Under the pieces are notes generated by a model. The model saw only the letters and a program-made list of their open reading frames with translations, did not search any database and had not been told where the DNA came from. A stretch of 35,908 nucleotides of DNA from Acidimicrobiia bacterium (GTDB taxonomy: Bacteria > Actinomycetota > Acidimicrobiia > UBA2766). Numbering within the stretch: position 1 is the stretch's first letter; each line of letters starts with the position of its first letter. The position numbers and the translations under genes are program-made. The DNA lies in NCBI GenBank assembly GCA_020850945.1, contig JADZDR010000079.1, positions 1-35,908 on the forward strand. Direction: 5' to 3'. This document shows positions 4,299-8,961 of the stretch, in pieces.

Positions 4299-4655
4299 TC
4301 ACCCCCGGGCGGCGCCGATCAGAAGGGTGACGGACAGAGCGATCCAACCTGCCCAGCCGAGGCCGACAGGCACCCATGCAAGCCGCTGATCACGCACGAA
4401 GCGGAGCGCAACCCACGTGGACAGAGCCGTCACGGCCGTGATCGCGAGACCGAGGATCACGAGGATCGCCGCATAGACACCGCCGTCGATCGCGCAGTCG
4501 TAGGGACCCTGCTCGGTGCACGGGATGCCGGCCGACAGCGACCACCGCCGCAGCACCCAGGCCGCCCCGGCTACGACCGGCACCGTGCCGGCTAGCACGA
4601 TCACTGCCGGCCATGGCCTCACGGCAGTCGAGGTCCGGCCTTTCCCCGTGGTCAT
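4299..4655 (-). CDS. Small three-helix membrane protein, unknown function
   Basis: 118 residues with three hydrophobic segments: about 18-34 (VIVLAGTVPVVAGAAW), 59-80 (GGVYAAILVILGLAITAVTAL) and 95-114 (VPVGLGWAGWIALSVTLLIG). A loop between the first two has two cysteines (IPCTEQGPYDC) that could form an extracytoplasmic disulfide. AGGAG immediately abuts the ATG, which is closer than ideal. I do not recognise the family. It is convergent with the OsmC gene (27 bases apart) and divergent from the B12 riboswitch. Coding potential is supported by the coherent membrane pattern rather than by homology. Confidence 0.62.
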   Translation of the reverse strand: MTTGKGRTSTAVRPWPAVIVLAGTVPVVAGAAWVLRRWSLSAGIPCTEQGPYDCAIDGGVYAAILVILGLAITAVTALSTWVALRFVRDQRLAWVPVGLGWAGWIALSVTLLIGAARG

Positions 4656-4769
4656 CTCCTGTCTGACACGGAGAACGATACGGGGACGAAGCCGAACGGG
4701 AACGCCGAGAAGTCCAGGTAGCGAAGGCGCCTGTGTTCCGGTTCACATGATTCCCCGCGGCCGCGGACG

Positions 4770-4775
4770 TATACT
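4770..4775 (+). promoter_or_regulatory. Probable -10 box of the B12 operon promoter
   Basis: TATACT at 4770-4775 stands out in GC-rich DNA just upstream of the cobalamin aptamer and would start transcription near 4783. A -35 element is unclear: TTCACA at 4742-4747 has a 22-base spacer, which is too long. Confidence 0.5.
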
Positions 4776-4782
4776 CCGCCCA

Positions 4783-4996
4783 CCCGGCATTCTGCGTGCC
4801 GGTGTCACAGGCGGCGGCGAAGTCCGGTGTGAGTCCGGCGCTGTCCCGCAACTGTCATGCTTTCGTCCTTCGGGACCGAAGCGAGCCAGGTCGCCCGCGT
4901 CTGTGGCCACGAACGAGTCCTCGGAGGAAGGGCAAGTCCGTGGGGCAGCGCAGCGCCCACGAGCTCGCTTTTCATCCTCCGACCAACTGGAGGATG
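4783..4996 (+). promoter_or_regulatory. Cobalamin (B12) riboswitch with ribosome-binding-site sequestor
   Basis: The conserved aptamer core runs 4826-4855 and includes GGTGTGAGTCC and CTGTCCCGCAACTGT. A UUCG-capped hairpin (GTCC/GGAC, 4865-4876) follows, then the B12 box AGCCAGGTCGCCCG (4884-4897). CACAG (4806-4810) can pair with CTGTG (4901-4905) as a closing helix. Downstream, CATCCTCC (4973-4980) is exactly complementary to GGAGGATG (4989-4996), which holds the btuF Shine-Dalgarno, so the hairpin would hide it. TCGGAGGA (4921-4928) is exactly complementary to TCCTCCGA (4975-4982) and would free it. There is no terminator-like U-tract. Control of translation initiation of the btuF-cobU operon is therefore the natural reading, with B12 expected to favour the hidden state. 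Confidence 0.95.
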
Positions 4997-4999
4997 TCG

Positions 5000-5989
5000 A
5001 TGTTCAAGCGTGTCTTGGCGGGCGCGGTACTCGCCACACTCACCTTGATCGGCTGCGCTGACAACGGCTCGGGCGACAAGGCTGCAGTCACCCGTGAGGG
5101 CGGGTTCCCCGTGACGATCGCGGCCGCGAACGGTGACGTCGAGATCGAGTCCGAGCCTGAGCGCATCGTGTCGCTGTCACCGACGGCAACCGAGATGCTC
5201 TTCGCGATCGACGCCGGCCCCCAGGTCGTGGCGGTGGATGACGAGTCCGACTACCCAGCCGATGCGCCGGTCACGGATCTGTCGGGATTCGAGCCGAACG
5301 TAGAGGCGATCGCCGCCTACGAGCCTGACCTCGTGGTCGTCGCCAGTGATGCCGGCGACGTGATCGCTTCCCTGGAGCAGACGGGGACGGCGGTTCTCGA
5401 GATGCCCACCGCCGAGAAGCTCGAGGACACGTACGAGCAGATCGACCAGCTCGGTGACGCGACAGGCCATCCCGAGGAGGCGGCCGAGCTGACCGACCAC
5501 ATGCGGGCGAAGATCGAGGCGATAGTCGATGCCACTCCGCCGGCAGAGGGACTCACCTTCTACCACGAGCTCGACCCCCAACTGTTCTCGGTGACATCCA
5601 CCACCTTCATCGGGCAGATCTACGGGCTACTCGGACTCGAGAACATCGCTGACGCCGCCGATCCTGCCGGGACCGGCTACCCGCAGCTCAGCGGGGAGTT
5701 CGTCATCGACGCCGATCCGTCGTTCATCTTCCTCGCGGACACCCAATGCTGCGGCCAGAACGCCGAGACCGTCGCGGGACGGGCGGGTTGGGATCAGATG
5801 CAGGCCGTCACGAACGGGAGGGTCGTCGAGCTCGACGACGACATCGCATCACGATGGGGGCCCCGGATCGTCGACTTCCTGCAGGTGGTGTCCGACGAAG
5901 TGACGGCTGCCGCAGGTAGCAGCGCCCCCCAGAGCAGCGTTCCGGAAGCAGGCACCCCGGAAGAAGAGGCCCCGGAAGAAGGCCGATGA
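5000..5989 (+). CDS. btuF: Corrinoid ABC transporter substrate-binding lipoprotein
   Basis: 329 residues starting MFKRVLAGAVLATLTLIGC. The ATG at 5000 is six bases after GGAGG; the in-frame ATG at 4994 abuts it and is less likely. The N-terminus is a lipoprotein signal with lipobox LIGC (Cys19). The mature part is a periplasmic-binding-protein type III fold typical of BtuF/FecB: PERIVSLSPTATEMLFAI, then FEPNVEAIAAYEPDLVVV, and late WDQMQAVTNGRVVELDDD. An acidic tail (about PEEEAPEEGR) is unusual but likely inert. The protein captures corrinoid outside the membrane and delivers it to BtuC. Position directly behind a cobalamin riboswitch separates it from siderophore-binding relatives. The stop overlaps the btuC start. 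Confidence 0.93.
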   Translation: MFKRVLAGAVLATLTLIGCADNGSGDKAAVTREGGFPVTIAAANGDVEIESEPERIVSLSPTATEMLFAIDAGPQVVAVDDESDYPADAPVTDLSGFEPNVEAIAAYEPDLVVVASDAGDVIASLEQTGTAVLEMPTAEKLEDTYEQIDQLGDATGHPEEAAELTDHMRAKIEAIVDATPPAEGLTFYHELDPQLFSVTSTTFIGQIYGLLGLENIADAADPAGTGYPQLSGEFVIDADPSFIFLADTQCCGQNAETVAGRAGWDQMQAVTNGRVVELDDDIASRWGPRIVDFLQVVSDEVTAAAGSSAPQSSVPEAGTPEEEAPEEGR

Positions 5990-7071
5990 TGTCGGCGCCG
6001 GCCCGTGTCTCTGCGCCTCGCGTCGGAGGACGTGTCGGGGTGCGGTCACGCGTGTCCCGGCGGCGCCGCATTTGGATGGCCGCCGGCGTGGGCGCGATGT
6101 GCGGAGCCGCTCTCGTCGGGGTGCTCGTCGGCCCCGCTGCCATGCACCCCGTCGACATCATGGCGGAGCTCGTGGACAGGCTCGTCCCCTTCACGCACGT
6201 CGAGTCGGGCCTGAGCGAACGGCAGGCGGCGATCCTCTGGAACCTGCGTGTGCCACGCGTGGTCCTCGGCGGCATGGTCGGGGCGATGCTCGCCGTGGCG
6301 GGCGCTTCGTACCAGGGTGCCTTCCGCAACCCTCTCGCCGACCCGTACCTGCTCGGTGTCGCGGCCGGGGCCGGTCTCGGAGCAACACTCGCGTTCGCCT
6401 ACGTGCCGGGGGTCACAGGTCTCGTTCCGGTCGCCGCCTTCCTCGGCGCGCTTCTCGGTGTCGGGATCGCATATGCGCTCGGCCGCTCGCGTGATCCGCG
6501 GCGGGCCGCGACCAGCCTGATCCTCTCCGGTGTCGCCGTCGCGTCCTTCATGACGGCCCTGCAGATCTTCGTGCAACAGCAGCATTCCGACACTCTGCGG
6601 CAGGTGTACGGCTGGATCCTGGGGCGCCTCACGACCGCTGGCTGGAGTGAGGTGCTCCAAGTCCTGCCGTATGTGGCGGTCAGCCTCGCCGCCCTTCTCC
6701 TGGCAGGGCACCTCCTCGACGTCATCAGCGTGGGCGACGAGGAGGCCGAGACCCTGGGCGTGAACACGAAGCGCGTGCGGCTCGTGATCGTAGGCCTCGC
6801 GTCACTGGGTACGGCAGCGGCTGTGGCGGTGAGCGGCCTCATCGGCTTCGTCGGCATCATCGTCCCGCACACGATCCGTCTCGTCGCGGGATCGAGCTAC
6901 AGGTCGATCCTGCCTCTCTCGGTGCTGTTCGGGGCGGCCTTCCTGATCCTCACGGATCTGGCCGCACGCACGGTCGTGTCACCCGCCGAGTTGCCGATCG
7001 GTGTCGTCACGGCTCTCATCGGCGCCCCCTTCTTCGCTGTGGTCCTGCGTTCGAGCGGGGAGGGGACGTGA
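5986..7071 (+). CDS. btuC: Corrinoid ABC transporter permease (FecCD family)
   Basis: 361 residues. The ATG overlaps the btuF stop (ATGA), so translation is coupled. After a basic, probably cytoplasmic N-terminus of about 27 residues there are roughly ten hydrophobic segments. FecCD hallmarks are NLRVPRVVLGGMVGAMLAVAG, GAFRNPLADPYLLGVAAGAGLG, a VYGWILGRL segment, and near the end GLIGFVGIIVPHTIRL, the region around the coupling helix. BtuC dimers form the channel for corrinoid passage. The loop AETLGVNTKRVR matches the cytoplasmic face that contacts the ATPase. It is followed by btuD with another four-base overlap. Confidence 0.94.
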   Translation: MMSAPARVSAPRVGGRVGVRSRVSRRRRIWMAAGVGAMCGAALVGVLVGPAAMHPVDIMAELVDRLVPFTHVESGLSERQAAILWNLRVPRVVLGGMVGAMLAVAGASYQGAFRNPLADPYLLGVAAGAGLGATLAFAYVPGVTGLVPVAAFLGALLGVGIAYALGRSRDPRRAATSLILSGVAVASFMTALQIFVQQQHSDTLRQVYGWILGRLTTAGWSEVLQVLPYVAVSLAALLLAGHLLDVISVGDEEAETLGVNTKRVRLVIVGLASLGTAAAVAVSGLIGFVGIIVPHTIRLVAGSSYRSILPLSVLFGAAFLILTDLAARTVVSPAELPIGVVTALIGAPFFAVVLRSSGEGT

Positions 7072-7862
7072 CAGCCGAGATCGTGATCCGGAACCTGAGT
7101 GTGCGACTCGGCGGCACATGCGTCATCGACGACCTCGACCTCACTGTCACCGGCGGCCATCTCTCGGTGCTGATCGGGCCGAACGGCGCCGGCAAGACCA
7201 CGTTGCTGCGGGCCGTCCTCGGCCTCGTGCCCTACGAGGGCGAGATCGAGCTGCCCGGTCTCTCCCCGGCAGGCGGGGGTCGCCGTGAGCTCGCCCGCCT
7301 CGTCGCGTTCGTGGCGCAGCGGCCCGTCATCCCCGAGGGGATGGCGGTCTTCGACTATGTGCTGCTGGGTCGCACACCGTACATCGGTTATCTGGGTCGT
7401 GAGCGAGCGGCGGACCTCGAGGTCACGGCGGAGGCGCTCGAGTTGCTCGACCTGGGACGCTTCGCGGATCGCCACCTCGGGTCCCTGTCGGGGGGTCAGT
7501 TGCAGCGGGCGGTGCTTGCCCGCGCTCTCGCCCAGGAACCGAGCGTCCTTCTCCTCGACGAACCCACGAGCGCTCTCGACATCGGCCAGGCACAGCGCGT
7601 GCTCGAGCTCGTGGACCGCATCCGCCGTGAGCGCGGCCTGACCGTCCTGGCTGCGATGCACGACCTCTCCCTCGCCGGGCAGTTCGCGGACGCACTCGTT
7701 CTGCTCAACGAGGGCCGCACTGTCGCCGTAGGTCCACCGGAAGCGGTCCTCACGGCCGATGTCATCGGCGAGTACTACGGTGCCACGGTGCACGTGTTCC
7801 ACGACCCCGACCTCGGCGTCGTCGTCGCGCCTGCGAAGACACGGCGCCGGCCCGAGCGATGA
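7068..7862 (+). CDS. btuD: Corrinoid ABC transporter ATPase
   Basis: 264 residues from a GTG overlapping the btuC stop (GTGA). Every ABC ATPase motif is present: Walker A GPNGAGKTT (37-45), Q-loop FVAQRPVIP (about 81-89), signature LSGGQLQRA (140-148), Walker B VLLLDEP (160-166) and the H-loop histidine in AAMHDLS (about His198). The size and the layout of the FecE/BtuD branch fit a stand-alone subunit that dimerises on BtuC. It powers uptake by ATP hydrolysis. The stop overlaps the start of cobO. Confidence 0.94.
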   Translation: MTAEIVIRNLSVRLGGTCVIDDLDLTVTGGHLSVLIGPNGAGKTTLLRAVLGLVPYEGEIELPGLSPAGGGRRELARLVAFVAQRPVIPEGMAVFDYVLLGRTPYIGYLGRERAADLEVTAEALELLDLGRFADRHLGSLSGGQLQRAVLARALAQEPSVLLLDEPTSALDIGQAQRVLELVDRIRRERGLTVLAAMHDLSLAGQFADALVLLNEGRTVAVGPPEAVLTADVIGEYYGATVHVFHDPDLGVVVAPAKTRRRPER

Positions 7863-8434
7863 GCGCCAGCCCCTCCGCGGATCCGCCGCACGAGCAGCCC
7901 GCGGCTGCGACGCATACGGCACCTTCACTGGTAATCGTGAACACGGGGGAGGGGAAGGGCAAGTCGACGGCGGCCATGGGAATCCTCATGCGGGCGGTCG
8001 CCCGCGGATGGCGGGTCGCGGTGATCCAGTTCGTCAAGTCCGGGGCCTGGCAGGTGGGGGAGGAGAAGGTGGCGCGAGATCTCGGCGTCGACTGGTGGAC
8101 AGTCGGAACGGGCTTCACGTGGGACGCCGACGACATGGAAGAGACCGAGGCCGTGGCTATGGCCGGCTGGGAGTTCGCGAAGGAGGCACTCGCCTCCGGC
8201 AGCTACGACCTCCTCGTCCTCGACGAGGTGACGTACCCGGTCAACTGGGGGTGGATCGACGCGGACGAACTCGTGGCCGCGGTCGCGGCACGGCCCGAGC
8301 ACGTTTCGGTAGTGATGACCGGACGCGACGCACCTGAGTCCCTCCTCGGGATTGCCGACACTGTCACGGAGATGCGCAACGTGAGGCATGCCTTCGACCG
8401 CGGGGTGCGGGCCCGGAGGGGGATCGACTACTGA
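7859..8434 (+). CDS. cobO: Cob(I)yrinic acid a,c-diamide adenosyltransferase
   Basis: 191 residues, with the ATG overlapping the btuD stop. A short disordered leader of about 22 residues precedes the P-loop GEGKGKST (30-37), in which the phosphates bind in the reversed orientation typical of the BtuR/CobO/CobA class. Further family marks are MGILMRAVARGWRVAVIQF, WQVGEEK, LLVLDEVTYPVNWGWI and VMTGRDAPESLL. The enzyme transfers the 5'-deoxyadenosyl group of ATP to Co(I) corrinoid. Placed directly after an importer, it would adenosylate imported corrinoid, including incomplete corrinoids (inference). It shares a one-base stop/start overlap with cobU. Confidence 0.94.
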   Translation: MSASPSADPPHEQPAAATHTAPSLVIVNTGEGKGKSTAAMGILMRAVARGWRVAVIQFVKSGAWQVGEEKVARDLGVDWWTVGTGFTWDADDMEETEAVAMAGWEFAKEALASGSYDLLVLDEVTYPVNWGWIDADELVAAVAARPEHVSVVMTGRDAPESLLGIADTVTEMRNVRHAFDRGVRARRGIDY

Positions 8435-8961
8435 TGCCGCTCACGGTCGTCCTGGGCGGTGCCCGCAGCGGCAAGTCCGCGTACGCGGTGCGAGCCGGCC
8501 AGGCGTGGGGGGGACCCGTCCGCTTCGTCGCGACCGCCGAGGCACATGACGAGGAGATGGCTGCCCGCATCGAGCGTCATCGTGCCGACAGGCCCCCGGC
8601 ATGGGAGACCGTCGAGTCGCCACGCGACGTCGGGGGGGCGATCGCCTCCACCCCGGCGGGGACGCTCGTGATCGTCGACTGCCTCACGCTCTGGGTCGCG
8701 AACCTGGTCGCGGCGGGTCTGGAGGACGACGATATCCGGGCATTGGCGATCTCGGCCGCGGCAGCCGCCGCTTCGCACACCTCACCGGTGGTCGTGATCT
8801 CGAACGAGGTGGGTTCGGGCATCGTCCCCGCGGACCCCGACGTGCGCCGATATCGGGATCTCCTCGGAACCGTGAACATGGCGTGGGTAGAGGCGTCGGA
8901 CCACGCCTGGTTCCTCGTGGCAGGTCGTCCCCTCGCTCTCGAGCCACCGGACGCGACATAG
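8434..8961 (+). CDS. cobU: Adenosylcobinamide kinase / adenosylcobinamide-phosphate guanylyltransferase
   Basis: 175 residues. The start shares its A with the cobO stop (TGATG). The P-loop GGARSGKS is at 8-15. The histidine of RIERHRADRP (His49) is the expected guanylylated residue. VDCLTLWVANL and ISNEVGSGIVP complete the CobU signature. The bifunctional enzyme phosphorylates adenosylcobinamide and converts it to the GDP form that CobS joins to the lower-ligand nucleoside. It acts immediately after CobO in salvage. cobS, cobT and cobC are not in this window and must be elsewhere if nucleotide-loop assembly is complete. It is the last gene of the riboswitch operon as judged by spacing. Confidence 0.94.
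   Translation: MPLTVVLGGARSGKSAYAVRAGQAWGGPVRFVATAEAHDEEMAARIERHRADRPPAWETVESPRDVGGAIASTPAGTLVIVDCLTLWVANLVAAGLEDDDIRALAISAAAAAASHTSPVVVISNEVGSGIVPADPDVRRYRDLLGTVNMAWVEASDHAWFLVAGRPLALEPPDAT

Follow-up and report, generated by a model that had tools for sequence, protein, structure and literature searches.

A Cobalamin Riboswitch Upstream of a btuF-Like Gene in an Acidimicrobiia Bacterium, with One Apical Loop Probably Contested by Two Partners

The btuF Leader and Its Operon

The window, i.e., the whole stretch of 35,908 nucleotides of contig JADZDR010000079.1 from an Acidimicrobiia bacterium, carries a btuF-btuC-btuD-cobO-cobU gene cluster for cobalamin uptake and salvage in which the gene ends overlap or adjoin each other, and which is preceded by a cobalamin riboswitch (Table 1). 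The btuF- and btuD-like products stay under the cut-offs of the NCBIfam models for BtuF (70.8 bits) and for a corrinoid ABC transporter ATPase (223 bits), and their putative B12 assignment draws on protein family and operon context. Two in-frame ATGs occur at the beginning of btuF, at 4994 and 5000, the former lying inside the arm GGAGGAUG of the SD-sequestering hairpin, an arm retained by many relatives. ATG 5000 is the likely start; ATG 4994 was rejected in this role, as it leaves no gap to the Shine-Dalgarno (SD) sequence.

TABLE 1. Features of the btuF leader and the downstream operon (window positions).
Feature	Position	Strand	Basis or remark
Possible -10 element TATACT	4770-4775	+	Read from sequence; weak
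Cobalamin riboswitch aptamer	4777-4916	+	Rfam RF00174
Outer P1/P3 helix	4806-4820/4891-4905	+	Aptamer
P4	4824-4827/4835-4838	+	Aptamer
L5, UCCCG, aptamer strand of the kissing loop	4844-4848	+	UCCCG L5 consensus (PMC10653944)
P6 arm, single short hairpin	4859-4882	+	Aptamer
B12 box, variant AGCCAGGUCGCCCGC	4884-4898	+	Relatives carry AGCCAGGUCGCCUGC
P13 hairpin, GUCCU 4917-4921/AGGGC 4929-4933	4917-4933	+	Stem covaries
L13 apical loop CGGAGGA	4922-4928	+	Kissing partner of L5, also anti-sequestor (both proposed)
Anti-sequestor strand (anti-anti-TIR)	4921-4933	+	4921-4928 with 4975-4982; 4929-4933 with 4967-4971
Sequestor arm (anti-TIR) CAUCCUCCGA	4973-4982	+	Common to both exclusive helices
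SD-sequestering hairpin, 8 bp, 4973-4980/4989-4996	4973-4996	+	Exact complementarity
SD GGAGG of btuF	4989-4993	+	Sequence; 6 nt 5′ of ATG 5000
btuF-like B12 substrate-binding protein	5000-5989	+	Pfam Peripla_BP_2, 107 bits
btuC-like permease	5986-7071	+	Pfam FecCD, 289 bits
btuD-like ABC ATPase	7068-7862	+	Pfam ABC_tran, 97 bits
cobO/btuR corrinoid adenosyltransferase	7859-8434	+	TIGR00708, 204 bits, exceeding the cut-off of 167.75
cobU cobinamide kinase/guanylyltransferase	8434-8961	+	Pfam CobU, 169 bits

The aptamer matches RF00174 with 32.6 bits (cut-off 31.5, E 9e-5) and features the core including a variant B12 box. The P8-P12 extension of class I is not present in the window, and the riboswitch looks class II-like. 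Its sequence reads GAA in J3/4 and UC in J6/3; class IIb has been described with GGAA and UCU at these joints. The P4 loop UGUGAGU was considered as L5 and rejected, the published L5 consensus UCCCG (PMC10653944) being found in the next hairpin. A scan for a sigma70 -35/-10 pair found none; if TATACT serves as a -10 element, transcription might begin close to the aptamer's 5′ side.

Mutually Exclusive Pairings around the Shine-Dalgarno Sequence

The segment CATCCTCC (4973-4980) is the exact reverse complement of GGAGGATG (4989-4996), and TCGGAGGA (4921-4928) is that of TCCTCCGA (4975-4982). As 4975-4980 is common to both pairings, the SD hairpin and the anti-sequestor helix exclude each other, and the 5′ arm of the hairpin thus has a competing upstream partner. 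Both 8-bp pairings and their exclusiveness had been described in an earlier note on this DNA and proved exact. Moreover, the anti-sequestor helix is longer than 8 bp, with 4929-4933 being able to pair with 4967-4971. In 20,000 dinucleotide-preserving shuffles of the region 4901-5002, a single perfect 8-bp stem appeared in 7.7% of cases and two 8-bp stems with a common middle arm in 0.03%. The former frequency, together with a G+C content of 69%, could suggest that the complementarities in this leader are due to chance; nevertheless, the rarity of the shared-arm pair as well as the conservation and covariation in relatives described below, which already contradict chance, render this explanation practically negligible.

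The earlier note had further proposed that the switch works without a terminator. This holds for intrinsic terminators, since scanning of 4600-5100 found no terminator-like site, and does not extend to Rho-dependent termination. The latter or RNA decay could represent the main output, with SD masking as the trigger, as such an output was reported alongside SD masking for Mycobacterium tuberculosis metE (PMC11260477) and would agree with the missing intrinsic terminator. Such an output would be compatible with the translational reading; still, all conserved features act on the SD and there is no sequence sign of a defined termination site, so that we regard it as possible rather than probable.

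Comparative Sample

Genome searches at family and order level yielded four genomes in all, and no strong btuF match was found in the three others of the family (best E 2e-13). Therefore, the tests of conservation drew on the class as a whole and on named genomes of actinobacteria. The named best matches include Acidimicrobiia and Nitriliruptorales, and leader sequences of class relatives recur in named Acidimicrobiia, e.g., the platforms of leaders L118 and L008 are the same. More distant class members match the btuF of the window (5000-5989) at 60-63% identity; the pattern within the family may point to lineage-specific loss or transfer.

By aptamer pattern, 156 btuF leaders were picked, including a few false picks, and 153 were used. 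Dereplication resulted in 43 leaders as the base for the swap, blocking, and association tests. The aptamer core is common to about 150 relatives according to the pattern search, with 12 of 40 scanned loci reaching either the RF00174 or the RF01482 cut-off; the btuF leaders L006, L015, L030, L055, L064, and L077 score better with RF01482 than with RF00174. No published account of the actinobacterial btuF leader group was found in a literature search covering few subscription journals.

P13 and the L5-L13 Kissing Loop

Shortly 3′ of the aptamer, and beyond the end of the RF00174 match, the leader forms a hairpin which is conserved in relatives, where it usually starts 31-36 nt past the B12 box. 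Its stem covaries, with 89% of cells paired across 29 distinct stems closing a 7-nt loop of the CGG type, compared to 73% in shuffles (none of 2000 reaching 89%) and 48-58% with the partner slid. The loop consensus CG[N]GGA is the complement of UCCCG with a bulge of 1-2 nt, and UCCCG is the published L5 consensus of cobalamin riboswitches (PMC10653944). Considering the conserved hairpin, the complementarity of its loop to this consensus, and the presence of UCCCG at 4844-4848, the hairpin was identified as P13 and its loop as L13. A basal extension of P13 by CACG (4908-4911) and CGUG (4939-4942) is possible. In the window, UCCCG and CG[GA]GGA combine to five Watson-Crick pairs (U4844-A4928, C4845-G4927, C4846-G4926, C4847-G4923, and G4848-C4922) with G4924-A4925 bulged; the shortness of this pairing and the required 2-nt bulge count against it.

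L5 is near-invariant in the relatives, and each of its four variants occurs with an L13 that retains five pairs (L195 ACCCG/CGAGGU, L016 UGCCG/CGGCGCA, L025 UCCAG/CUAGGA, and L082 UCGCG/CGCGGA). For L195, L016, and L025, the match of L13 to the L5 of the same leader exceeds that to the consensus L5, whereas L13 of L082 fits both equally, which counts against the kissing loop. A few leaders possess an imperfect L13 despite a consensus L5, e.g., L153 (CGAGGU) and L045 (CGGCGCA). Automatic picking of P13 missed some leaders (e.g., Actinomadura, L089, L117), and L13 was then defined by motif search; since this renders the L5-L13 statistics partly circular, the L5 variants were given the weight, along with platform tests that make no use of L5.

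These findings bear on the role of 4921-4928, which the earlier note regarded as an anti-sequestor. Its exact pairing with 4975-4982 remains, but the segment is not a free strand, 4922-4928 being the apical loop of a hairpin. It is likely that the aptamer competes for 4921-4928 via L5, as the segment corresponds to L13 plus one base of P13.

Folding Energetics

The effect of holding L13 was calculated with the aptamer helices fixed. With L13 free, opening of the SD costs 4.9, 4.4, and 6.9 kcal/mol at 3′ ends 5000, 5010, and 5060, in comparison to 11.2, 11.5, and 10.8 kcal/mol with L13 held. For 3′ ends 5000-5010, the calculated cost thus rises from about 4.5-5 to about 11 kcal/mol. In the platform alone (4905-5010), the state with P13 and the SD hairpin (-41.0 kcal/mol) and the anti-sequestor state (-41.2 kcal/mol) are nearly equal. 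When each 7-nt stretch 5′ of the SD hairpin was blocked in turn, blocking of L13 in the window caused a penalty of 6.5 kcal/mol, placing L13 at most one base away from the stretch with the greatest effect. L13 ranked in the top tenth with a coupling of at least 1.5 kcal/mol in 18 of the 43 dereplicated leaders, while 3.8 would be expected for a random stretch.

Folding of the growing transcript predicts the anti-sequestor with a probability of 0.94-0.95 at 3′ ends 4985-4990, where the SD is still incomplete. Even in the predicted anti-sequestor state, the SD is open to about 19% only (3′ end 5000), since GGA (4989-4991) can be bound by UCC (4918-4920). With at least 30 nt of coding sequence in the fold, the SD hairpin is the dominant equilibrium structure even if L13 is free, and the SD is open to at most 0.01 at 3′ ends 5030-5060. 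Both points speak against a switch governed by thermodynamics alone. As the OFF hairpin would consequently win without ligand, the ON state would require co-transcriptional or ribosome-assisted trapping and is probably a matter of synthesis order and capture by the ribosome.

Co-Evolution of L13 and the Sequestor Arm

In the dereplicated leaders, the native L13 strand pairs more strongly with the sequestor region (mean -13.1 kcal/mol) than strands of other loop types do (-10.7 kcal/mol; Wilcoxon p=3.3e-4, 43 leaders). L13 of the type CGGAUGA is accompanied by UUCAUC between P13 and SD in all 36 leaders concerned. Among dereplicated leaders, CGGAUGA or CGGGUGA is associated with UUCAUC (Fisher p=3.7e-6) and GGAGGA with UCCUCC (Fisher p=2.1e-6); all these tests may retain some effect of shared ancestry. 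The SD is mostly paired in the minimum free energy structure of the platform in 37 of 43 dereplicated relatives.

The coupling differs between groups, as an anti-sequestor effect was obtained for 14 of 20 leaders of the long-loop group, which includes the window, and for 4 of the 23 others. The competition is mostly absent in the CGUGGA-loop leaders (e.g., Streptosporangiales), which nevertheless keep P13 and L13. Accordingly, the use of L13 as anti-sequestor is not universal. This retention of P13/L13, usually without coupling, would suit a direct switch lacking any anti-sequestor, in which the kissing loop or P13 sterically hinders the ribosome and the complementarity of 4921-4928 and 4975-4982 is a by-product. 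L13 has to complement UCCCG and is therefore GGRGGA-like, i.e., an SD mimic, while the sequestor arm has to complement GGAGG; with GGAGGA present in L13 and in the SD for independent reasons, some complementarity of L13 to the sequestor arm is to be expected. However, CGGAUGA is no SD mimic and still comes with its UUCAUC counterpart, native L13-sequestor duplexes are stronger than swapped ones, and the pairing in the window runs beyond GGAGGA via U4921-A4982 and 4929-4933:4967-4971. A direct switch is thus considered decidedly unlikely.

A more far-reaching idea, rather unlikely in our view, is that the near-universal UCCCG of L5 makes L13 an SD mimic pairable with the SD sequestor throughout actinobacterial btuF leaders, so that the use of L13 as anti-sequestor would constitute a default way for cobalamin riboswitches to become translational, with the unbound L13 maybe acting as a 30S standby site.

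Further arrangements were observed. The leaders L183, L189, L198, L200, L209, L212, L053, L070, L075, and L083 feature an SD hairpin of the form CUGUC...GACAGGAG, and in some members the complement of L13 (e.g., CCUCG) is located in the hairpin loop instead of the arm, which could represent another topology of the same competition. In leaders of the L013 type (e.g., L013, L018, L024), P13/L13 (ACCCU-CGUGGAAA-AGGGU) is almost invariant with little coupling of L13 near the SD, and the switch may operate differently.

Proposed Mechanism and Known Systems

Comparative and energetic data as well as the precedent of M. tuberculosis metE make the translational sequestor/anti-sequestor switch put forward in the earlier note the best-supported reading. 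The btuF leader very probably constitutes a cobalamin riboswitch of the translational OFF type, with a single loop, L13, for which two partners compete. The basis established here comprises sequence, aptamer match, conservation and covariation, and calculated energies; ligand identity, repression, and co-transcriptional timing are what we infer. In the ligand-free state, the nascent sequestor arm (4967-4982) would be captured by L13 together with the 3′ arm of P13 (4921-4933) before the SD emerges, leaving the SD at most weakly paired and btuF translated. With bound cobalamin, probably adenosylcobalamin, L5 would kiss L13 and thereby prevent formation of the anti-sequestor. P13 would then be held, the sequestor arm (4973-4980) would close on 4989-4996, and the uptake and salvage operon would be shut off, a repression suggested by the riboswitch family.

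As stated in 2007, cobalamin riboswitches usually work via a pseudoknot between a C-rich loop and sequences outside the aptamer (PMC2258182). The closest design is that of M. tuberculosis metE (PMC11260477), likewise a translational OFF switch whose anti-TIR masks the SD without an intrinsic terminator and whose anti-anti-TIR resides in a hairpin with the apical loop L13, which pairs with cytidines of L5. There, L13 overlaps the anti-anti-TIR, as examined by in-line probing, compensatory L5/L13 mutants, and deletion fusions; in the window, L13 (4922-4928) lies inside 4921-4928. In contrast, M. tuberculosis metE has been described as a class I riboswitch whose P6 carries a large extension (P7-P11), with uORFs in addition, while the P6 arm of the window is short. 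The distance from anti-anti-TIR to anti-TIR amounts to about 60 nt in the former, and to about 40 nt up to the sequestor arm in the window, whose P13 moreover follows close behind the aptamer and whose riboswitch would control btuF uptake and salvage genes.

In Escherichia coli btuB and env8HyCbl, kissing of L5 and L13 lends stability to P13 and favours the RBS hairpin (PMC10653944), which resembles the sequence of events proposed here, although gene and clade differ. The kissing loop of env8HyCbl was reported with a bulge and a mismatch (PMC10653944), and that of the window would need its 2-nt bulge. Priestia megaterium metE has exactly UCCCG as L5, and its alternative structure engages the 3′ side of P13 in pairing, which makes P13 and the anti-structure mutually exclusive; unlike in the window, its output is an intrinsic terminator and not SD masking (PMC10653944). 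The btuF leader hence represents a known design in a new instance, the same logic having already been tested experimentally in M. tuberculosis metE (PMC11260477), and its biology is otherwise ordinary, namely B12 feedback on B12 uptake. Still, it offers a small, readable case of how a ligand signal may be relayed to a ribosome-binding site by a 7-nt loop with two competing partners, and the 153 related leaders supply natural compensatory variants for tests of this relay.

Further Cobalamin Riboswitches

In a genome of the same family, a similar cobalamin riboswitch (L003, 1541-2420) precedes a predicted secreted protein of 244 aa, for which no Pfam match was found. The genome of the window itself harbors a second cobalamin riboswitch (L001, 1500-3021; G000:C53:21859-21986) with ACCCG as L5. 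Its P13-like hairpin, GGCCCU-CGUGGAA-AGGGGCC, almost touches the SD, without a separate sequestor arm. This riboswitch is followed by the gene of a secreted protein (about 440 aa) that weakly matches squalene-hopene cyclases and the alpha-alpha-toroid, a fold that also occurs in intrinsic factor.
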